From a virus, in the IMG/VR virus record IMGVR_UViG_3300025133_003666, positions 1 through 21,593 of that record: 21,593 bases of DNA, one strand, 5' to 3'. Shown here piece by piece: positions 1,613 to 17,107 of this stretch (its first letter is position 1; the number at the start of each line of letters is the position of its first letter). Both the position numbers and the translations under genes were made by a program. The notes under the pieces were generated by a model. It was not told the DNA's origin and searched no databases. It saw only the letters and a list, made by a program, of their open reading frames with translations.

Positions 1613-2664
1613 CAATTATCCCTACTACTTATATACTCAGATAGTGTTGGTGGTCTCCTATTAATCTCTAGATTAACTGAATAGGAACTAGGGGAAAAAG
1701 ATATACCCTTACCCATTATTCTATAATTACCACTAAACTGAGGGTCATCAGTTTCTATTCTTACTATTTCATTTTCACAAAGGTAAGCTCCATCAAAACT
1801 TTCTATTACATATTCATATTGAGTGTGTAAATTAGCCTGAAATAACCTAGCAGCAAAATCTTTACATTGAGCATAAGATGTTAATTTATCATTAGATACT
1901 TCTAAATAGTTTCTATCATAAGCCTCTAAAGCAGTATCGTGTGTGAAAGTGGCAGAAACGCTATTACCATTAACTGTTATAACAGTAGGTAGTTTTTTAT
2001 TTATAACACTCAACTCTTCTATATTATTATATTCATCAAACACATGTTTAACATTAGTATCTTCTAGTCTACTTTCTAACTCTATAACAAGTTGAGAATA
2101 TTCTCCATCATCTACTATTTTAATAATGTTAGGTCTTGGTAGACTTTGGTCTGTTTTATCTATAGCTTTTGATATCAGTTCTTCTATTATAGCTTTGAGA
2201 GATAGTGTACCTCTTAGAGGTTCTCTCACAGAGGATATCAAAGGACTTGTATTACCTATCAAATCTGTTTTTAGTTTACCATCTAATTTAGCTAAAGTGA
2301 TTGCCTTTTGTATAGCAGCACCCACAGTTAATCCATCTAAATTTTGTCTATCATCTAATATAATCTTAGCTAAACCTTGTTCTCCACCTCTAAGCATATA
2401 ACCAAAAGCATCCATAGCCATAATTTCTATATCATTAAATGTCTCTTTTGTACGTTTTATCCATCCCCTAAACATTGGAGCGCTATCAAAATCATTGAGA
2501 TAGAAAGTTACTTCTTTGTTCCATAATTTTTTCATACCACCATATGTTAAAGGTAGTTTGAATGTCATTTCTGCTGAAGTAATCCCACCATCACTCTTGT
2601 ACGAACCGTCAAGATAATCTACTTCCCTACCTTCTATACAAATCTTAGGAGTAATCTCTTGCAT
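1612..2664 (-). CDS. Tail hub / baseplate hub-like protein (350 aa)
   Basis: This is probably the tail-tip hub, the ring or trimer that joins the tail tube to the distal tail and through which DNA or the tape measure exits. The N-terminal 100 residues follow the usual hub layout: a short beta strand region with the substituted ligand loop (SAEMTFKLP), a strand pair VTFYLND / FRGWIKRT, then IEIMAMDAFGYML, a pattern seen in gpD/gp27-like hub proteins. The C-terminal part (about 270-350) has a second beta domain with GNYRIMGKGISFS. It overlaps the upstream 1016-aa gene by 20 bases in another frame. GGGAG lies 8 bases before the ATG and supports this start. Its position as the last large gene of the tail cluster fits. 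No lysozyme or peptidase domain is visible. The family call is by pattern and position only. Confidence 0.6.
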   Translation of the reverse strand: MQEITPKICIEGREVDYLDGSYKSDGGITSAEMTFKLPLTYGGMKKLWNKEVTFYLNDFDSAPMFRGWIKRTKETFNDIEIMAMDAFGYMLRGGEQGLAKIILDDRQNLDGLTVGAAIQKAITLAKLDGKLKTDLIGNTSPLISSVREPLRGTLSLKAIIEELISKAIDKTDQSLPRPNIIKIVDDGEYSQLVIELESRLEDTNVKHVFDEYNNIEELSVINKKLPTVITVNGNSVSATFTHDTALEAYDRNYLEVSNDKLTSYAQCKDFAARLFQANLHTQYEYVIESFDGAYLCENEIVRIETDDPQFSGNYRIMGKGISFSPSSYSVNLEINRRPPTLSEYISSRDN

Positions 2665-5600
2665 ATTCTACGCTCCCTAGAGGGAATATATCTGTCATTA
2701 GAGTATGGTTATTATCTAATAATGCTATCTCCTCTACAATCATGTTAAAATTATAAGATTGTATTGCTCGTGGTCCACCGGTTGCTAAAGACTCTGAGAC
2801 GCTTGTAACCATACCCCAGAACCTCACATATGTACCATCCTTTTGTATCTCATCCCAGTAAACCCTAACGTTATCTGCTTGTAATTTTCTTACCATATGT
2901 AAGTGACCATATAATGTAGATGGGTCACCATAATCTTCAAAAGCAGTAGAACTTGAACTATCTCCTAAAGCGACACTATCAAAAGATATAGTCTGTATAG
3001 GAGTTCCTACTCTAGCAATAAATACTTTACCCTTCCTAGTTATAGCTTGGAAATAGTTTCCTGCCCTAGTTACTGATACATCACTAGTAATAGATAATGA
3101 ATTAAGACTATAAGAGGAATCGTCTACTGATTTAATTACAGAAGTATAACCTCTTGTAGCATCAAAGACATTCCATATCTCAGGATATAAATTATTGGTT
3201 GCAGTTGTAGCTCCTGAGAGTACTATCTTTAATAAATATTTTTCACTACTCCATGCACTAGCTATTTGTGGTCCTATAGTATTACCAGTATTAATTGAAT
3301 ATGTATTATTCCATGCAGTTGACCAATTACCAGCATCACCCACTCCAAATAGTTGGGTAGCCGAACCACCAACAGGCATATAAACCTTACTAAATCCATC
3401 TATTATATCATATACATTAACTCTCTTAATATATCCCTTTGTTATACCAGCTCCTGTTGTAGAACTTTTATCTCCTAGATGTAAATAAATTTTATCATTA
3501 GCTGAATCATAACCACTATCTCCATCTTTACTAATCCAATATGCGCCAGACACTGTAGGAGTACCATCGTCTACTCTAATAAACATATACTTAAAAGAAC
3601 CTATATCACTATCAGAGGCTAAAGCAGAGATAGGATTAGCAGTCATTGTATAAGGAATGTAATCCCCTATCACAGTACCATCAGCAGCAGTACCTACTGT
3701 ACCAGTTGCTAAACCTGCCGGTGAACCTGCACCTGCATAATCCATTGAGGTAGCAGCTGAAGGGATAGTAGTAGAGTTATATGCTCCACCCATGGCACCT
3801 GTTATACTTAAGTTACTCCAATCTAATGGCATATCAAAAGATAAGTAGCCCGATTTAGATAAAGAATATTTAACAGTATCATAAGTATCATTAGTTTCAT
3901 CTCTGAACTCTCTTGTTATAGCAGTACCATCATCAAATTCTACTGGTTGCCAGTAAGCATTTTGTGTTGGAGTATCTTTATCTGTGACTGCTAAATAATA
4001 TATACCTGCTATACCATAAGCAGGAGACACATTAGGGTCTGATATTAAATTATCTGCGTGATTACTTAAATCTAAGAATATCTTATTTGTTTTTTTATCA
4101 AACATGCAGAGTAAATATTCTCCAGCATTAGCCCTTTCTGTGTTTGTGACATCATAGAAAGTCATATCATTGACTCCTGCTAGACTTACTAAACCACTAC
4201 TTCCACTTGTATTATTAAAAGATTCAGTAGTATATTGTTTAGATTTAGAAGCATTAGTTCCACTGTCTATTACTTTAGTAGGATATAATTTAGCGTTAGC
4301 TGCGGATGCAGCTGTACTACCATCACTTGTTACAGCCCATGATATAGCGGGTGTTATTCTAAATACTTCTGGTTTGTTATCAGTTATAGTACTTACATTA
4401 GCTGCACTTGATGCAGGTTCTACAGACATACGTGTTAAATGATACTGAGGTACGAATCTACCATAATCATCTAAAAGTAGTTGGTCTTCAAGATATGAAT
4501 CTGCATTATTTGTATTCCATGGTAAACTAGTTGTAAAGAGTGTTTTACCAGCAGCACCAGTCAAACCATCTGGTCTAACCATGTATGTATAAGCAGTATC
4601 TTTGGTATCACCAGTTTGCTTTGTTGCATCTGAAAAGGTAGTGGTTGAACCAGTACCCCATGAATAGGCTGATTGAAACCAACCCTTACCTAAATCATAT
4701 CTATAACTAGATATGGCTACATTAGAAGCAGCAGCCCTACTCTGTGAAAAATCTAGAGATACATTACGTAAAACATCCACTGATTTTTTAATAGGTTCTC
4801 CAGCTGTTACATAAGACACAGGCACATACTTGCCTAAATTATTAGAGTATGCTAATAAAAATATTTTAAGTCTATTATAAACTTCATTCTTGTTGTAGGC
4901 TGTAGTATCACTACCTGCATATTTAGGGTTTTTAAATTTAACTTCTAATACTTGAGATACTTGCGCTCCTGATTCAAGAGCACTTAGATTATGAGCACCA
5001 CTTGCTAATATATTTCTTAATCCTGTTACACTACCAGTCAAGTTTGTTCCACTTAACACCACAGGTAAAGTCTTAATTATTCTTTCCCCTCCAGTATCAG
5101 TTTGAACAGTTGCACCATCACCATCTCTTATTCCATAATTCAATATACATTTTACATCTACATTAATAGAACCAGTAGTAGAAGAACCAGTCTCACAAAA
5201 ATATTTTAATTCGTTTTGAGTTAAACTCGGTGCCACTGCAATAAATAAATCTTTAGGTCCTTCTGCATCGAAAATACTATTATCTACACCAGACTTCACA
5301 GTTCTATTTTCCATTTTAATAATACCTGTGGCTGCGGTGTCATCTATAACAGTGTTCTGCATTGTAGTAGACTGTGCAAAAGGAGATATGTCTGAGTTAC
5401 TTGCCGCACTACTATAATACTTTGAAAAGAAACCTCTAGAGTTTACAGTTTGAACTACAGGCTTAAAAGTCCCCGTAGCAGTATAAGTATGAGCAATATT
5501 TAAAGTACCAGTAGGTTCAGACAATTGTACCCATTGGTAATTAGATTCTGTTTTTTTATTTGAAGTGCCATCATCCCAATCTATATATACAGCACGTATG

Positions 5601-5695
5601 TCATCATCTGTAAATTGAAGATTACCAGTTACTTCTGTAAAAACTATACCAGCGCCAGTTGTAGCACCAGAACCATCCCACCTGAAGTAACTCAT
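2645..5695 (-). CDS. Large distal tail protein with N-terminal PKD-like domain (1016 aa)
   Basis: The start at 5695 is chosen over the ATG six codons upstream because ATGA overlaps the stop of the 1840-aa gene and AAGGTGA lies 7 bases upstream. Residues about 32-88 read like a PKD beta-sandwich: VYIDWDDG, then HTYTATGTF and VVQTVNSRG, the usual W-D-D-G and H-T-Y-x-x-x-G signature. The middle 750 residues are rich in Ser, Thr, Ala and Gly, look all-beta, and match nothing I recognise. The last 90 residues change character (KLQADNVRVYWDEI, RFWGMVTSVSES, FNMIVEEIALLD) and resemble a compact tail-assembly domain of the LysM or wedge-like type. I infer a tail-tip or fibre-like protein in which the C-terminus docks on the hub and the beta-rich part is exposed. 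PKD folds are frequent in archaeal surface proteins and bacterial adhesins, so the domain alone does not fix the host. Confidence 0.6.
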   Translation of the reverse strand: MSYFRWDGSGATTGAGIVFTEVTGNLQFTDDDIRAVYIDWDDGTSNKKTESNYQWVQLSEPTGTLNIAHTYTATGTFKPVVQTVNSRGFFSKYYSSAASNSDISPFAQSTTMQNTVIDDTAATGIIKMENRTVKSGVDNSIFDAEGPKDLFIAVAPSLTQNELKYFCETGSSTTGSINVDVKCILNYGIRDGDGATVQTDTGGERIIKTLPVVLSGTNLTGSVTGLRNILASGAHNLSALESGAQVSQVLEVKFKNPKYAGSDTTAYNKNEVYNRLKIFLLAYSNNLGKYVPVSYVTAGEPIKKSVDVLRNVSLDFSQSRAAASNVAISSYRYDLGKGWFQSAYSWGTGSTTTFSDATKQTGDTKDTAYTYMVRPDGLTGAAGKTLFTTSLPWNTNNADSYLEDQLLLDDYGRFVPQYHLTRMSVEPASSAANVSTITDNKPEVFRITPAISWAVTSDGSTAASAANAKLYPTKVIDSGTNASKSKQYTTESFNNTSGSSGLVSLAGVNDMTFYDVTNTERANAGEYLLCMFDKKTNKIFLDLSNHADNLISDPNVSPAYGIAGIYYLAVTDKDTPTQNAYWQPVEFDDGTAITREFRDETNDTYDTVKYSLSKSGYLSFDMPLDWSNLSITGAMGGAYNSTTIPSAATSMDYAGAGSPAGLATGTVGTAADGTVIGDYIPYTMTANPISALASDSDIGSFKYMFIRVDDGTPTVSGAYWISKDGDSGYDSANDKIYLHLGDKSSTTGAGITKGYIKRVNVYDIIDGFSKVYMPVGGSATQLFGVGDAGNWSTAWNNTYSINTGNTIGPQIASAWSSEKYLLKIVLSGATTATNNLYPEIWNVFDATRGYTSVIKSVDDSSYSLNSLSITSDVSVTRAGNYFQAITRKGKVFIARVGTPIQTISFDSVALGDSSSSTAFEDYGDPSTLYGHLHMVRKLQADNVRVYWDEIQKDGTYVRFWGMVTSVSESLATGGPRAIQSYNFNMIVEEIALLDNNHTLMTDIFPLGSVEYARDYS

Positions 5696-8600
5696 AAAGT
5701 GGTCACCTTCCATGAAACTTGATTACTAGAGGCTACTTGTTTTCTATTTAATCCTCTTATATTGTGGTAATCCATTAAGAACAGTCTAGCATGTTGCGTG
5801 ACATATCTCTGCTCTGTAGACGCGGATGTTACAACTTCTGTTAACTCACTTGGGTTGTATAAATACTCACTATCACTTTCGATGATAGGAATAGCTTTAT
5901 TATATATAACTATTTCTTCAACAGAACCTCCATATGTTCCCGTTGTGCCAGTACCCCCAATCACAAAATCATCACCACCAGAATTACATGGGTCTGGAGA
6001 CAATATATAATCTTCTAGTGCCCCATTAATATATAATTTAAAATCAGGCCCTATTTTGCTCCCACTTTTGTATGTCACTATTACGCTGAGAGGTGTCTCT
6101 CCATCGCAAGCAATTAAACTTGTGCTTGTTGCCGATGCTCCGCTTGTATAAGCTATGACATTACCATTATGGAGCTTAATACCAAATCCATTAGTTGCAG
6201 TATCTGCTCCTCCTTCAGATATTAACCAAACATGAGTTCCCTTATCATCAGAGCTTGGTATAAAATGAGCACATAAAGTGTACTCTGTTAAATCTTCCAT
6301 CTGTGATGCAGCCGATATTGTACCTGTAGAACTACTAGCAGTATAAGCTGTATAACCAGACAGACCATCTATCTTAGTTCTTACTGAAGTTCCTACTGTT
6401 AAAGCTGTACCACTATCTGGGTATTGCCTTGGTGTAACGGACATATCATATTCGTTAAGTGCGGGTGCACTTCCTATAGTAGACGATGAAACATTTAGAG
6501 GTGCCCAGAAGAAAGCATTAGCATATTTATCTGGTATATTTTTATTATCAACCATCAACATCCTATACCACACATCATCACCACTCTCACTCCAGTCAAA
6601 TTTAATATTATTAACGTTTTCCTTTGTTAATTCATAAAGATTTACATCGGACTGTAAAGCATCAAATGCAGGAGAGACAGAAAATTTACTTATTTGAGGT
6701 AGTTCGTCATGGAATTGCCATACCATAGCAGGTAAGAAAGCTTCATCTAATGCTGCTGAATTCTCATCACCCACTAAGCTAACAGTTTTTGCCGCTACTT
6801 GATTAGATAAACCTAATACTAGATTTATATCTTCATCGGGGGCTACACCAGCTGAGTCTACCAACCCTTTTAATTCTATATCGTTATAAGTGTTTAGAAC
6901 TACAGCAGCTTTACCAAGCTGACCACCCTCATTTTCATCATCATCATAAGTACCAAAACCAAAATCTTTATCTACCACTAATGAAGTAGATTCAGCACCT
7001 GCTTCTAAAATCCAAGGTTTAGTTATAAGACCTCTTACTCCAGCCTGTGAAGCAGTATCGTCATAACTATAAGTACTTTCATTATAAGTACTACCTACTG
7101 CATCAGCAAAAACATCCGGGCCAGACCCAGTAAAACGTTCATTGATTTGCATAATACTTTCATAATTACGTGGATAATTTAAGACTGCGGTTGTTTCTTG
7201 TTCAGGAAAGAAAGTAGAAGTACTATAATCACCATTATTTGTGTCTACGAAACTCAGATTAACCCAATATTTATATGGAGATATCCATAACTCAGATAAT
7301 TCCCAAGAAGATAAATTAGTCATCGGAGTATCAAAATATATAACTCCTTCTGTTCCTTGAGCATTACTTTTATTCATAGCTAGCTTACATATTTTTAAAA
7401 TGGTATTAGAACCACCAGAATCATCATCTACAGTACCTGCATATATATTGTTAGCGCCACTGACATTAATCCCTGCTCCTGCCCTATATATAATATATTC
7501 ACAGTCTTCTTCGTCAGGTAATAATATACCGGGATTATCTACTATAATAGCGTTATTATCTAATTCAGCTTCATCATCAGCCATATTAAGTCCGGGCATT
7601 CCGGGCACAGCTAATATCTTAGCAGAGGCCCATATATTTTCTCTCTTTGCCCATAAACTTGCAGCGAAATCTCCAACCGAACCGTCATCAGTCTTCCAAC
7701 TCGTACTACCAGCACCAGTTTGAGTTGCGCTACCAGTACTCATATCTATAGCCATAGTGGTAAATCCTTTTTGTGTAAAGCCGTCAGTAGAACCGAAAGC
7801 CTCTCCCTTATCTGCATACCCTACATAGAAAGTATGTCCACTATATAATCTTTTAGATTGACTAGGTAAGCGATATTCTGCGGCCGTTGGTGCAGATGCC
7901 ACATCCCCTAAAGCACCAGAAGAAATAGTCATCCAAGCTCTACCACATCTCAAATCATCACCCCACCATGCGTCACTAGTACCAGATTCCCCATGGAAAT
8001 ATTTTCCTCCAGAATATAAAGTACTTCCTGAAGCTCCGTTATACCACATACTTGCACCTTGCCAACATGATTGATGTATGGAAGGGGTTGTTGAAGCATT
8101 AGAAGTATACTGATATGCACCAGCATCTCCCATTATCCACTGACCGTTTGCAGCAGTCGTGTCTGGTATAGGAGGAACTCTAGCAACTCCATTAGAACCC
8201 CATTGAGTACCCCAACACTGATGTCCCATCTTATCCCATCCACCAATACCAGTACCATATGTATTAATATGATTATGAGTACTTATTGCGCCAGTGTTAG
8301 CGACAGTAACCCATGCTGCGGTTGGTGTCATTCGTGTTAAATTATCGAAACTTGCAGTTGAAAAGTTATTCCATAATTGATAAGCATACCCTGTATAACC
8401 AGCAGTACCACCACCAGCTGGTACACCACCACCGAAATTTTCATATCTCCCAACAGTTCCAGCTCCTAAATAATTAGTCATTTGGTCAAATCCGTTAAAT
8501 CCTATAGCTATACCATGTCCAGTACGTCTAGAATATAAATTACCATCTCTATTTAAATCTCTTAACATGTTAGCGTTTACTGGAGTGGCATCGCTACCAC

Positions 8601-11214
8601 TATATCTAGTCATTAAAGGTGACTTAATTGTAGGGTTTTTGAAATTTATAAACTGTTGTACCTTTCCAGCCGTAGCTGAATGGTTTGTTATTATATTATT
8701 AAAATATTTAAATTCAATATCGTCGAAATATACAAGAGTTTCTGGTGCTGTAGAGCCACTTTCATATAAAAGGCTGTCAGCACCTCTAACATCGCCATAT
8801 ACTCCATTACCTATAGTTCCAGATACACCTTGGAACTCATAATCAGGACTAGAACTAGTACCATTATAAGAAGTCCATCTAAATCCATTAACCCATATAG
8901 TCATATTGGATGGCCACGGAGAGTGTTTCCACGGACATGCTACACCATTATACCAAGTACTTAGAGCTATTCTGTCGTCTAAAGGTGGCCCATCTTGGAA
9001 CGTCTGAGCACCATCCAAAGCAGTTTTTACAGTTGGTGTAAATGTTACTCCAGTATTGTTACCATTATCACGGACCATAAATGGCATAACTACGAATGGT
9101 TTATTTTCATCTAAACTTCCAGATAATTGGTCGGAGCCTGCATTACTTCCACTAATACAACCATCAAAGAAAGCCATAGCAGGAGTTCCATAGGAAATAT
9201 ATCTTCCATATTGTTCGTCACCCCCAGCGCTACCAAAAGCACTAGCAGGGTCGTGTAATGCGTTGTATTCAAACGGGGAAGCATTTTTACTGTATGTTTT
9301 CTTACCCCAAGCTTGATTAGTATCAAACGCCATCTTCATAGTAATCCAACCGTCTTCAGGTAATTCTACCCAATGAGGTTCTGTAGAAGTATCAGGTTCT
9401 GTAAGAATTCTTGGGTCATGCACCATAGTTAGACCCTTACCATTATCAAAAGATGCCATACCACCTGACGCATATAGACCATTGGCAGATGTAGTAGGAC
9501 TTTGCCACTTAGTTACAGGTAATGCGTAAGCATATATATTACCTATGTTAGCTTCATTCTTATCTAACGTAAGACTTGAACCACTTAATTTTGCTTCGGC
9601 GTTACCAAACATTCTTTGGAATACCATACCTCCCAATTGTACGTCATTTCTACCTTCTACGTAAAAACGATTCATACCATAATGTAAGAAATCATCTAAA
9701 GTATTAAATCCTTCAGCCCTATAACTAGACCACGTAACTACAACACTACGCCAGAAAGTTCTAAGACTACCTCTAGATTCTTCCCACATATTATCACTAC
9801 CAGCTACAGTTTGGGCAGTTATAGACATACTATCTATTGAAGGATTGGTTGACGTATAAGAGCCATCGCCTTGACCTACGGTTCTATAATAAACAGTTCC
9901 ATTTCCTCCCCACCTAGTTGCATTAATAGCTGGAGAAGGTAACATCTTTGCGATGTTCATTGTAAAATTAATTTCAGGAATAGACATTCTTTTATCAGCT
10001 ATATGAGCACCAAAAGCTATTTCAGTATTCTCTGCTACTGACGTACCACTCATACTACCACTAAGTACAGAAGCACCACTAAAAGGAGCATAACCAAATC
10101 CTCCAGTATCCAGAGGTACTGGTTTAGGTATGTTCCACATTCCTAGTTTTATAACTTGAGGATTATATGACTTATCTCCAAGACTTGTTTGCATATTATG
10201 CATAAATTTTTGATTTGATGTGTACGTAGATATGTGGTGTGCTTTTAGAGAACTACCTCCAGAAGCTTTCTTTTCACCATTTATTTCTACAGTAGATGAA
10301 AAAATAGGTTTACTAACTGCATCAGTAGATAAAACACTACCTAAAGATTGCGTAGCAAAAATATCATTAAAAATTGTATTATTTGTTGAAACATCAGGCA
10401 TTTCTTTAGTATTAGCTCCTTGCGCTGGTAATGGTGTACCTACTTTTACTCTTGTCTGTAAGTCTTTCCATTTCCAATATGGGGCATATATTTGCCATTT
10501 TTGTTTCTCGTTTCTATTATCGTATAAGGCAGTCCAAAGACCATTGATATTATTCTTTTTCATAGGTTTAACATATACTCTCTTGTTTTCTGGATTAGAG
10601 AAATATTTACCTAAATTATGAGCTATATCATCACTAGCTCCTCCTCCAAAGAAAGCGTCTCCACCTGCCCAAATAATATCTTCTCCTTCTTCGGGAGCTA
10701 TATATAAATCCTTTATACTTGAAGCTGCTCTATCATTATCTTGAATAAGAGCAGTACCAAAAGATTTATTAGAACCATCAAAATTTTCTTCCATCCATGG
10801 AATTTCAGGGTCTAAATAAGCACTATATACTGCTAATTTATCGCCAGTCTCATTAGCTATACCAGTCTGTTTAACCACACCACTATTAACTACAGTTCCT
10901 ATACTGAAACCTCCTTCCTTTCCTGTTATATTTTTCTGTAGAAGATATACTTCTTGTTCAGGAAGTGTTGTGGTTCCGCTTAAAGTCATACCTGTACAGT
11001 ATGTCTGTAAATATGCATTTTCTAGTTTTCCCCCACCTACAGTAGGTTCTGCTGGAACACTACCAGAAAGTACAATCTGGGTGGCGTTAAATCCACCATT
11101 TAAATAAAATAAATCATCAGTAGCTTTAGAAAAATCTTTAAATCTAGGGTAAAGAGACATACCTTCTGTAATAAGTTTTCTTTTGTAATAACGATTATTT
11201 TGTATTTCTATCAT
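5692..11214 (-). CDS. Giant tail-tip / receptor-binding protein with C-terminal LamG-like domain (1840 aa)
   Basis: This is the largest gene in the window. It begins two bases after the tape-measure stop and ends in an ATGA overlap with the next gene. The N-terminal 300 residues and the long middle are Gly-, Ser-, Thr-, Asn- and Trp-rich and appear to be repeated beta-sheet material with no recognisable enzyme motif. Residues about 1641-1785 look like a concanavalin/LamG sandwich: FGIKLHNGNVIAYTSG, then FKLYINGALEDY, then FVIGG and GSVEEIVIYNKAI, the classic order of a LamG_3 domain. Such domains bind glycans. A final 50-residue segment (VTQHARLFLMDYHNIRG) is different and may be the docking piece. 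Its place directly after the tape measure is where distal-tail and host-contact proteins are encoded, so a role in adsorption is likely. The ribosome-binding site is weak; translation is probably coupled to the tape-measure gene. Confidence 0.65.
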   Translation of the reverse strand: MIEIQNNRYYKRKLITEGMSLYPRFKDFSKATDDLFYLNGGFNATQIVLSGSVPAEPTVGGGKLENAYLQTYCTGMTLSGTTTLPEQEVYLLQKNITGKEGGFSIGTVVNSGVVKQTGIANETGDKLAVYSAYLDPEIPWMEENFDGSNKSFGTALIQDNDRAASSIKDLYIAPEEGEDIIWAGGDAFFGGGASDDIAHNLGKYFSNPENKRVYVKPMKKNNINGLWTALYDNRNEKQKWQIYAPYWKWKDLQTRVKVGTPLPAQGANTKEMPDVSTNNTIFNDIFATQSLGSVLSTDAVSKPIFSSTVEINGEKKASGGSSLKAHHISTYTSNQKFMHNMQTSLGDKSYNPQVIKLGMWNIPKPVPLDTGGFGYAPFSGASVLSGSMSGTSVAENTEIAFGAHIADKRMSIPEINFTMNIAKMLPSPAINATRWGGNGTVYYRTVGQGDGSYTSTNPSIDSMSITAQTVAGSDNMWEESRGSLRTFWRSVVVTWSSYRAEGFNTLDDFLHYGMNRFYVEGRNDVQLGGMVFQRMFGNAEAKLSGSSLTLDKNEANIGNIYAYALPVTKWQSPTTSANGLYASGGMASFDNGKGLTMVHDPRILTEPDTSTEPHWVELPEDGWITMKMAFDTNQAWGKKTYSKNASPFEYNALHDPASAFGSAGGDEQYGRYISYGTPAMAFFDGCISGSNAGSDQLSGSLDENKPFVVMPFMVRDNGNNTGVTFTPTVKTALDGAQTFQDGPPLDDRIALSTWYNGVACPWKHSPWPSNMTIWVNGFRWTSYNGTSSSPDYEFQGVSGTIGNGVYGDVRGADSLLYESGSTAPETLVYFDDIEFKYFNNIITNHSATAGKVQQFINFKNPTIKSPLMTRYSGSDATPVNANMLRDLNRDGNLYSRRTGHGIAIGFNGFDQMTNYLGAGTVGRYENFGGGVPAGGGTAGYTGYAYQLWNNFSTASFDNLTRMTPTAAWVTVANTGAISTHNHINTYGTGIGGWDKMGHQCWGTQWGSNGVARVPPIPDTTAANGQWIMGDAGAYQYTSNASTTPSIHQSCWQGASMWYNGASGSTLYSGGKYFHGESGTSDAWWGDDLRCGRAWMTISSGALGDVASAPTAAEYRLPSQSKRLYSGHTFYVGYADKGEAFGSTDGFTQKGFTTMAIDMSTGSATQTGAGSTSWKTDDGSVGDFAASLWAKRENIWASAKILAVPGMPGLNMADDEAELDNNAIIVDNPGILLPDEEDCEYIIYRAGAGINVSGANNIYAGTVDDDSGGSNTILKICKLAMNKSNAQGTEGVIYFDTPMTNLSSWELSELWISPYKYWVNLSFVDTNNGDYSTSTFFPEQETTAVLNYPRNYESIMQINERFTGSGPDVFADAVGSTYNESTYSYDDTASQAGVRGLITKPWILEAGAESTSLVVDKDFGFGTYDDDENEGGQLGKAAVVLNTYNDIELKGLVDSAGVAPDEDINLVLGLSNQVAAKTVSLVGDENSAALDEAFLPAMVWQFHDELPQISKFSVSPAFDALQSDVNLYELTKENVNNIKFDWSESGDDVWYRMLMVDNKNIPDKYANAFFWAPLNVSSSTIGSAPALNEYDMSVTPRQYPDSGTALTVGTSVRTKIDGLSGYTAYTASSSTGTISAASQMEDLTEYTLCAHFIPSSDDKGTHVWLISEGGADTATNGFGIKLHNGNVIAYTSGASATSTSLIACDGETPLSVIVTYKSGSKIGPDFKLYINGALEDYILSPDPCNSGGDDFVIGGTGTTGTYGGSVEEIVIYNKAIPIIESDSEYLYNPSELTEVVTSASTEQRYVTQHARLFLMDYHNIRGLNRKQVASSNQVSWKVTTL

Positions 11215-14991: not shown

Positions 14992-15315
14992 CTAACCTCT
15001 GATTTTCGATTTCAATTCCTCTGCCGCTGCCTTTACATTACCATCACCATCATGGACTCCTGAAAGTGCCTCATATTTTCTTTTCTGTGCCATATACTTA
15101 CTCCAATCATTTCTAATTGCAGGTTTATTTTTAGCCATTTCACCTATATCTTTAGCGTCATACCCATCCATTGAGTGTAAGAGGTTATACTCGTGACAAG
15201 CTGCTAAAATACCTTCTAACTCCCATCGGGGAGTTCTTTTAATTTCATCCCACGTCATGTTTGTTTCTTTCATGAGAGGAATATATAATCTTACCGCATC
15301 AAGCGAGTTTGTCAT
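14992..15315 (-). CDS. Tail assembly chaperone, downstream (T-like) part, probably made as a -1 frameshift fusion
   Basis: This 107-residue frame directly precedes the tape-measure gene and overlaps the upstream chaperone by one base (TGATG). It is charged and mostly helical (MTWDEIKRTPRWELEGILAACHEY, WSKYMAQKRKYEAL), as expected for the T part of a lambda gpG/gpGT-type pair, which recruits tape measure and tube subunits during tail assembly. The ATG at 15315 has no ribosome-binding site at a usable distance; the nearest AGGAG is 23 bases upstream. The frame is open without a stop back to the slippery heptamer at 15330-15324, so the natural product is probably a fusion of 128 residues of the upstream chaperone, three linker codons (Ser-Ala-Leu) and this 107-residue part, 238 residues in all. 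Reinitiation at the TGATG could also produce a free 107-residue protein. Confidence 0.75.
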   Translation of the reverse strand: MTNSLDAVRLYIPLMKETNMTWDEIKRTPRWELEGILAACHEYNLLHSMDGYDAKDIGEMAKNKPAIRNDWSKYMAQKRKYEALSGVHDGDGNVKAAAEELKSKIRG

Positions 15316-15707
15316 CAGAGCTGAAAATTTTCTCGGCTCTCCTGCTCAATACCCATGATGTCATTAGATATTTGATATCTCAATGTTGTTGGGAGTAAAC
15401 TCCAGTGTTCCTCTGTTATTTGAGGTCCATCTGGACTCTTTTCGTTAGCCTTTTCCAGCATAGCTAAAATTCTTTTAGCTCCTATGTCAGTATAATAAGC
15501 CATTTTTTCCTCTTCAGATGCTCTATCTGATAAAGGTCTAAATTTAGGCTCTTCTGCTTCCACTAACTCACAAAATTGATATTTTACGGTTTTTCCTCTA
15601 AATACAATCTCACCTACTTGCACGTCATCAGTGAGCGCAACTAAGTCATCCATTGTCCACATACTAGATGTGGTTTCTTCTTCTGATTTTATTTCTTCTT
15701 CTGTCAT
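15315..15707 (-). CDS. Tail assembly chaperone, upstream (G-like) part (130 aa)
   Basis: The 130-residue acidic protein sits between the tail-tube genes and the tape measure, the invariable place of the gpG-like tail chaperone. It starts with a Glu-rich tail (EEEIKSEEE) followed by VGEIVFRGKTVKYQFCELVEAEEP, a beta hairpin plus helix layout typical of these chaperones, and then two helical segments. It should bind tape measure during tail nucleation without being in the finished particle. AAGGTGAT, an excellent match to the 16S 3' end, lies 5 bases before the ATG, so it should be translated strongly. Its last codons contain the A AAT TTT heptamer (codons 126-128) that should send a fraction of ribosomes into the -1 frame. 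A strong hairpin precedes the gene by about 17 bases and may tune its level relative to the tube genes. Confidence 0.78.
   Translation of the reverse strand: MTEEEIKSEEETTSSMWTMDDLVALTDDVQVGEIVFRGKTVKYQFCELVEAEEPKFRPLSDRASEEEKMAYYTDIGAKRILAMLEKANEKSPDGPQITEEHWSLLPTTLRYQISNDIMGIEQESRENFQL
15324..15343 (-). promoter_or_regulatory. Programmed -1 ribosomal frameshift signal (A AAT TTT) with upstream SD-like stimulator
   Basis: Read on the minus strand, the zero-frame codons GAA AAT TTT contain the heptamer A AAT TTT (15330-15324) in the X XXY YYZ phase required for tandem -1 slippage. After slipping, the next codons are TCA GCT CTG ATG ACA, which is exactly the frame of the downstream chaperone. 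AGGAG (15343-15339) sits 8 bases upstream, a placement like the SD stimulator of the E. coli dnaX frameshift. The zero-frame stop TGA follows two codons after the slip. I could not see a convincing downstream pseudoknot. Frameshifting at this junction is a conserved feature of long-tailed phages. Confidence 0.78.
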
Positions 15708-15770: not shown

Positions 15771-16361
15771 CTACAGTGTTCCTGTTGTTATTGGTGTAGC
15801 TGAAGCTGCATTAGATACAGTTGGTGTTATGTAAGACATAAACTCAATTGTTTCTTCTGTAGTTCCATCTGCATTAACTGAGACGGTGTGTCCTTGAACA
15901 CAACATCCACGTACACTGAAAACATCTTTTGCACCACTCAAGACAACGTGTAAACGGTATCCTGTTTGTGTGGTTGGTTCTGCTAGTCCATCATATGCTG
16001 AACTGTTTGCGCATCCCCATCTTCCGCCACTGTTAAAGATTGAATCATAAACTATATCATTTTTCTTTTTTGTTAATGATACAGTTGTTTCTTTCTTTAT
16101 CTCAGCTTTGGTTACAGAGCGCATACCAACATATGTTATGTCCTCATCCATTGCTCCGATTGATAAATCGACTCCAGTTAAGTCTGCAACTTGGTTCATT
16201 GAACCGGTTGCTGTACTAACAGGATAAGCGAAAATAGTGTTACTTCCTGTGGTTGCTGCGAATGAAACGGCTCCTGCGGCACTTGCTAGAGCGTAAGAAG
16301 CTGCTTCTGTGTCTTCAGTAGTTATATAAACTGCACAATCTCTTCCTAAAAAATATGCCAT
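15771..16361 (-). CDS. Tail tube protein paralog 2 (196 aa)
   Basis: This is the second of two tandem tail-tube-like genes. It shares MAYFLGRD at the start, then DLTGVDLSIGAMDEDITYVG (about 60-80), a KAEIKKETTVSLTKKKND strand pair, RWG and GYR, and VNADGTTEETIEFMS near the C-terminus with the upstream 244-aa gene. The alternating beta pattern ending in a conserved strand is that of tail-tube proteins, which stack as hexameric rings around the tape measure. GAGGT sits 8 bases before the ATG, inside the end of the upstream gene. It is 48 residues shorter than its neighbour, mainly through missing loops between the ISLT strand and the last strands. It could be the main tube subunit, a minor ring, or a variant mixed into the tube. 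The hairpin that follows fits a need for high expression. Confidence 0.72.
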   Translation of the reverse strand: MAYFLGRDCAVYITTEDTEAASYALASAAGAVSFAATTGSNTIFAYPVSTATGSMNQVADLTGVDLSIGAMDEDITYVGMRSVTKAEIKKETTVSLTKKKNDIVYDSIFNSGGRWGCANSSAYDGLAEPTTQTGYRLHVVLSGAKDVFSVRGCCVQGHTVSVNADGTTEETIEFMSYITPTVSNAASATPITTGTL

Positions 16362-16372
16362 ATTTAATTACC

Positions 16373-17107
16373 TCAATATTCCCCTACTGTTGTCTGAGTG
16401 ACATTAAAAGTGTCACCAGAGGTTCCTTGTAGTGCGTCTTGCTGAGTTATGAATTCCATAGTTTCCTCACTTGTTCCATCAGCGTTAATACTGGTAGTAT
16501 GGGACTGAATTAAACAATTAGGGAAAGCCATAGTTTCTCCTGTTGCAGCGCTTCTAAATACAATAAATATTCTATATCCGGCTTCTACATTGGTAGATGT
16601 GGCGTAATCTTTTGGATTTGCCATACCGTCAACTATAAATGGAGCAGCTTCTGTGCTGTTACCATAATCACCGCCAAGACCCCATCTTGCGCTGTGTTTT
16701 TTTACAGTATCGTCTTGAGCTTCTGCGGCTCCTGACGCGACGGGACCATTGAATATAGTATCCCATGTATTATTACTCTTTTTTCTGGTCAATGAAATGG
16801 TGTACTCGTTCTTTATTTCCACCTTTCCTGTACCTTTCTGACCGATATAGGTGATATCTTCATCCATAGCACCTATACTAACATCTACACCAGTTAAATC
16901 TGTTACGTTTGTGGTTCCCCAATCCGAAACGGTTGCTCCTTCAGCTAATGATAGAGCGAACGCATCGAAATTAGAAGTACCTGTAGCAGCTATGCTTACT
17001 GAAGTTACTCCAGTAGCGCTTCCGCTAAGGACGCCAATATTTTTGGCGGCAGTATCAGATTCTGTACCGATATATACTTTTACATCTCTTCCTAGGAAAT
17101 ATGCCAT
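16373..17107 (-). CDS. Tail tube protein paralog 1 (244 aa)
   Basis: This is the first of two tandem tube-like genes and the first gene after the structured gap with a TATA-like box, so it probably starts a strongly expressed unit. It carries the shared block MAYFLGRD, DLTGVDVSIGAMDEDITYIG, YTISLTRKKSN, RWG, GYR and INADGTSEETMEF. Compared with the 196-aa paralog it has extra loops (a longer N-terminal loop near 25-65 and about 30 residues after the WDTIFNG strand), which in tube proteins typically face outwards. GAGGT lies 8 bases before the ATG. Its position between the neck genes and the chaperones is that of the major tail protein. I infer tail tube from position and beta-rich pattern; there is no enzymatic motif. 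Confidence 0.72.
   Translation of the reverse strand: MAYFLGRDVKVYIGTESDTAAKNIGVLSGSATGVTSVSIAATGTSNFDAFALSLAEGATVSDWGTTNVTDLTGVDVSIGAMDEDITYIGQKGTGKVEIKNEYTISLTRKKSNNTWDTIFNGPVASGAAEAQDDTVKKHSARWGLGGDYGNSTEAAPFIVDGMANPKDYATSTNVEAGYRIFIVFRSAATGETMAFPNCLIQSHTTSINADGTSEETMEFITQQDALQGTSGDTFNVTQTTVGEY

Follow-up and report, generated by a model that had tools for sequence, protein, structure and literature searches.

Long-tailed phages have the gpG/gpGT plan of the tail chaperone genes in common, although the proteins that these genes encode are conserved in plan with little similarity to each other (PMC5009743). A frameshift in the tail chaperone genes has also been described in haloarchaeal tailed viruses, being of the -1 type in HVTV-1, HCTV-1, HCTV-2 and HCTV-5, and of the +1 type in HSTV-2 (PMC8211752, PMC5009743). 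Here we analyse the junction between two genes, A and B, of an uncultivated marine virus (IMG/VR record IMGVR_UViG_3300025133_003666), of which positions 1 to 21,593, the whole stretch of 21,593 nucleotides (nt), are referred to as the window. Gene A (15707-15315, minus strand) is an open reading frame (ORF) of 130 amino acids that, by its position, would be the 0-frame, gpG-like chaperone, and gene B (15315-14992, minus strand), an ORF of 107 amino acids, would provide the -1-frame, gpT-like domain. The anatomy of the junction and its conservation make it very probable that A and B are joined by programmed -1 ribosomal frameshifting of the lambda gpG/gpGT kind.

The 3' end of gene A reads GAG CAG GAG AGC CGA GAA AAT TTT CAG CTC TGA. 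In this sequence the slippery heptamer A_AAT_TTT (15330-15324, minus strand) is split by the frame of A as GAA AAT TTT, in the X_XXY_YYZ phase, and the -1 reading is AAA TTT TCA GCT CTG ATG, which adds Ser-Ala-Leu before the Met of B. The -1 frame of gene B is open upstream to 15345, and the predicted A-B fusion has 238 residues. An internal Shine-Dalgarno-like element, AGGAG (15343-15339, minus strand), which is read directly from the sequence and is a probable stimulator, lies 8 nt upstream of the heptamer. Downstream by 6 nt, the stop codon of A (15317-15315) overlaps the first ATG of B (15315-15313) in a TGATG (15317-15313, minus strand), and this ATG has no Shine-Dalgarno sequence of its own. 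An earlier note on this stretch had claimed the correct phase of the heptamer, the -1 frame open into the downstream gene, a fusion of this length and a downstream ATG with no usable ribosome-binding site, all of which we confirm. A single heptamer is weak proof of frameshifting, because AAATTTT occurs 15 times on the two strands of the window, versus 9.2 expected (15 copies are reached in 8 of 100 shuffles). The motif is in phase in three genes of the window, and in the two besides gene A the -1 frame runs into a stop within 2 codons. The significance of the heptamer therefore rests on its conservation among relatives.

Viral contigs were scanned with B, A, an alignment of A, the A of locus L019, the B of locus L020 and an alignment of B. 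In all, 172 locus records had both genes, and they comprise 65 distinct junctions and 50 representatives that have <30% of their 12-mers in common. Counts of representatives treat related loci as independent and are to be taken as descriptive. Relatives of gene A share 36-78% identity (41 loci), and those of gene B 40-74%. An in-phase A_AAT_TTT stands 0-9 nt before the stop codon of A in 40 of the 50 representatives, whereas the rest of A and B has it at 3 of 10,480 in-phase positions, and gene B is in the -1 frame in all representatives except L019 (49/50). When related viral contigs are aligned over the junction, as the earlier note had suggested, very divergent relatives thus show the same heptamer and frame relation. 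L102-L105 were considered as exceptions and then discarded as such: their alignment had begun before an upstream stop, and A_AAT_TTT is present there too. The stop of A lies 0-12 nt downstream of the slippery site in 49/50 representatives, and the upstream stop of the -1 frame abuts the heptamer in 9/50 and falls inside or beyond it in 0/50.

The codons of the heptamer appear not to be free to vary. In gene A, 41 conserved columns are degenerate; the most frequent codon of a column usually accounts for 27-94% of the loci with the same amino acid, and only AAT (40/40) and TTT (48/48) are without synonymous variation. The GAA before AAT is likewise invariant (35/35). The residue before AAT varies (E, A, V, T, S), and the third base of its codon is A at every -1 site with AAT, AGT or GTT. 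As read from these alignments, the frozen codons and the constant wobble A are the mark of selection on the nucleotides.

The exceptions strengthen the case for frameshifting, because the loci that do not have A_AAT_TTT carry other slippery sites, namely A_AGT_TTT (5 representatives), C_CCA_AAC (2), A_GTT_TTT (1) and G_GAT_TTT (1, in L155), and not a strong ribosome-binding site, the finding that the earlier note had set against its own proposal. Several of these loci have also lost the start of B. L020 and L179 both have the canonical heptamer C_CCA_AAC and no start codon at the beginning of B, in L070 and L073, with A_AGT_TTT, B lacks a start codon near the junction, and L101, with A_GTT_TTT, has lost the ATG of B. 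In L106-L108, A_AAT_TTT is directly followed by the stop codon TAG, and B has no ATG, with a GTG still there. In a tree built on A and B, the loss of the ATG has at least three origins and A_AGT_TTT arose at least three times; C_CCA_AAC probably arose once. In the ATG-less lineages, at least three in number, B is plausibly made only via frameshifting.

Sites of this kind differ in how the tRNAs could re-pair. Both tRNAs can re-pair at A_AAU_UUU and C_CCA_AAC; at A_AGU_UUU and A_GUU_UUU re-pairing is limited to the Phe tRNA (U_UUU), and one-tRNA slippage may be sufficient there. A broader idea, which we hold to be rather doubtful, is that these loci form a natural series in which U_UUU is the sole constant of the U-type sites. 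Slippage would then be mainly that of a single tRNA-Phe, with a slow codon or a nearby stop in the A site, allowing A_AAU to become A_AGU, A_GUU or G_GAU, and one branch to pass to +1 at UCU_UUU_CGU.

Strong anti-Shine-Dalgarno pairing upstream of the heptamer was found in 68% of loci, the share in control stretches being 14% (Mann-Whitney p ~1e-17, for loci that are not independent). Moreover, the Glu codon at the column matching the Shine-Dalgarno-like element is GAG in 20/36 loci, when GAG makes up 17% of Glu codons. The AGGAG that the earlier note had placed 8 nt upstream is thus in position and its kind is enriched in relatives, while its action as a stimulator is only probable. The ATG of B has a Shine-Dalgarno sequence in 1/45 loci, versus 38/49 at the start of gene A; in the window, the ATG of gene A is preceded by its own Shine-Dalgarno-like AAGGTGAT. 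The codon after UUU is CGC, CGG or ACC in 20/50 loci, versus ~0.8% of codons in these genes, and, L069 excepted, the A_AGT_TTT representatives (four) all have CGG there. A rare codon at this place suggests a slow A site; the codon may also be under constraint from the -1 frame that overlaps it.

We propose that one start site would give two products, A alone (130 amino acids) and, less often, the A-B fusion (238 amino acids), both the slip and its efficiency being inferred. The ribosome would pause at GAA AAT TTT, helped by anti-Shine-Dalgarno pairing with the upstream AGGAG-like motif, and probably also by a slow codon or a nearby stop right after the slippery site. Slipping back by one base, the tRNAs on AAT and TTT would come to pair with AAA and TTT, and the frame of B would then be read. 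If lambda gpG/gpGT is taken as the model, the tape measure protein would be coated by A, tail tube subunits would be recruited by the B domain, and the ratio of A to A-B would set assembly.

The conservation of the junction could be explained in other ways. Translational coupling only, with termination at the TGA of A and reinitiation at the overlapping ATG, would yield a separate B and no fusion. In line with this, a stop/start overlap (TGATG, TAATG or ATGA) is present in 42/50 loci, which also counts against frameshifting, the ATG of B is present in 45/50, and L106-L108 keep a GTG at B. However, in at least three lineages B has no ATG and its frame is still open exactly to the slippery site, and coupling leaves the frozen GAA AAT TTT codons and the constant wobble A unexplained, so that we consider coupling as the sole mechanism improbable; free B may be produced by coupling or reinitiation beside the fusion. 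The heptamer could also be a by-product of a conserved E-N-F protein motif at the C-terminus of A in these AT-rich genes, where AAT represents 60% of Asn codons and TTT 75% of Phe codons, and AAATTTT is indeed common in the window. Nevertheless, all the other conserved degenerate columns of A vary synonymously, and substitutions at the site lead to other slippery sites. Among the relatives, none with an intact A/B arrangement was seen to have AAC or TTC at the heptamer codons, and the synonymous choices alone would have a chance of ~1e-19, a figure that assumes independent loci when these are related; it is hardly credible that the protein motif accounts for the heptamer. There is just as little to be expected from transcriptional slippage at an A/T run, by which mRNAs with an extra or missing base would let B be read without ribosomal slippage. 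An A/T run is present at the site in nearly all loci, with the C_CCA_AAC pair as the clear exception, but with only 4 A and 4 T the runs are short for the polymerase to slip on, and the phase-specific X_XXY_YYZ pattern, C_CCA_AAC and the upstream Shine-Dalgarno-like elements suit the ribosome.

Programmed -1 frameshifting itself has to be weighed against several observations. In the window, the 70 nt downstream of the heptamer fold no better than shuffles (z +0.63), and RNAalifold gave no consensus structure downstream in 50 sequences, in agreement with the earlier note, which had seen no pseudoknot. Downstream folding has a mean z of -1.25, versus -0.53 in a control stretch, a weak excess that we judged too small to claim as a stimulator. 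At A_AGT_TTT, the P-site tRNA re-pairs poorly in the -1 frame. In L019, a divergent relative (contig IMGVR_UViG_3300030329_002466, around 3960-4015), B is in the +1 frame behind GCC TCT TTT CGT. This arrangement occurs in one contig only, the sole match being the same contig, and, if the T run were longer by one T, the ending would be AGT GGA TGA, as in L008. It was rejected as a proven +1 case because a sequencing error and a recent deletion are indistinguishable. Finally, neither A nor B has recognisable chaperone relatives by sequence or fold.

With regard to the identity of the two proteins, A and B have no match in Pfam or PHROG. Their AlphaFold models are confident (predicted local distance difference test score of 86 each), and Foldseek, run with both proteins on solved structures and with A on viral models, returned nothing significant, with matches at E > 0.1 only, two of these weak matches being proteins annotated as tail assembly chaperones. 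Known tail chaperones share little sequence. We assign A and B as tail-assembly chaperones by context, from their position beside the tape measure gene and the frameshift architecture. Thus, the gpG/gpGT principle invoked in the earlier note stands as regards architecture and conservation, and chaperone identity comes from position, with no match in sequence or fold.

The structural genes of the window are on the minus strand, in the order of two tandem paralogues, A, B and the tape measure protein gene. The latter (14984-11217, minus strand) is directly downstream of B and matches the PHROG for tail length tape measure (E 1e-29) and Pfam PhageMin_Tail (E 1.7e-23). Upstream of A, the paralogues at 15771-16361 and 16373-17107 (both minus strand) have the N-terminus MAYFLGRD in common, and each is a probable major tail protein; the protein at 15771-16361 has no family match in PHROG or Pfam. 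By position, the two are probably duplicated tail tube proteins. The tandem MAYFLGRD pair is also kept in an 81-kb relative (8078-8800 and 8812-9405 of L032, which is part of the L026 contig). Elsewhere in the window, adjoining tail genes share ~20 nt at 5692-5713 and 2645-2664 (minus strand), the next ATG being upstream of the preceding stop.

The virus group looks undescribed in isolate collections, as gene B and the major capsid protein (L031 7956-9044, identified by PHROG) had no match among 50,697 phage records, the capsid being searched by tblastn. Searches of 84,980 cellular genomes with the terminase and the chaperones matched no contig, and a radA-type search gave no match. The relatives carry PolB, CobS-like AAA and VWA proteins, Hsp20, an M42 peptidase and tRNA-Glu. 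The content of PolB, CobS-like, VWA, Hsp20 and tRNA-Glu genes is compatible with marine archaeal viruses, without proving such a host, and the relatives of the RNR and the terminase are mostly those of bacterial phages. The 81-kb relative encodes a tRNA-Glu(TTC) with an encoded CCA (L034 14849-14924, minus strand), whose D-arm, GTGTAG, would be closer to that of archaeal than of bacterial tRNA-Glu. Small proteins with many N-x-T/S sequons (NNTNETAGNETATNET...), like glycosylated archaeal surface proteins, are encoded at L031 2496-2978, L035 2745-3251 and L037 12069-12527.

Our results extend the range of the tail-chaperone frameshift to a group of uncultivated marine viruses, in which the proteins at the chaperone position match no family, and the frameshift helps to name two orphan protein families. 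The site types, the orphan proteins and the virus group are new to the sources searched, and the principle is already known. The variants at one homologous junction (A_AAU_UUU, A_AGU_UUU, A_GUU_UUU, G_GAU_UUU, C_CCA_AAC and a possible +1) offer a test of what prokaryotic slippery sites need. Gene callers would annotate A and B separately, and the fusion would be missed. If the host is archaeal, we know of no comparative record of -1 frameshifting in archaeal viruses larger than the one that these loci would provide.

Some of the variant sites have counterparts in distant systems. G_GAU_UUU is a known shift site of pea enation mosaic virus, in which a stop just downstream stimulates (PMC5009743). 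The same site is found in L155, and a UUU in the A site with a stop a few nt downstream is found across the present group; unlike the viruses described here, in which the stop may have such a role, pea enation mosaic virus is a eukaryotic RNA virus in which it was tested experimentally. The +1 site of influenza A PA-X is UCC_UUU_CGU (PMC5009743), and in L019 the sequence ahead of the +1-frame B is UCU_UUU_CGU, although, unlike PA-X, L019 is one contig in which one base in the T run would restore the ordinary arrangement. The tail chaperone frameshift is common to the haloarchaeal tailed viruses and to the present viruses, for which an archaeal host is one possibility. In contrast to lambda gpG/gpGT, the heptamer here is A_AAU_UUU, most members keep a possible start codon of B overlapping the stop of A, and the A and B proteins are unrelated to known chaperones by sequence or Foldseek. 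As in lambda, two small ORFs with low overlap immediately precede the tape measure gene, and a -1 shift shortly before the first of them ends would lead to a fusion, an arrangement that is kept despite the divergence of the proteins.
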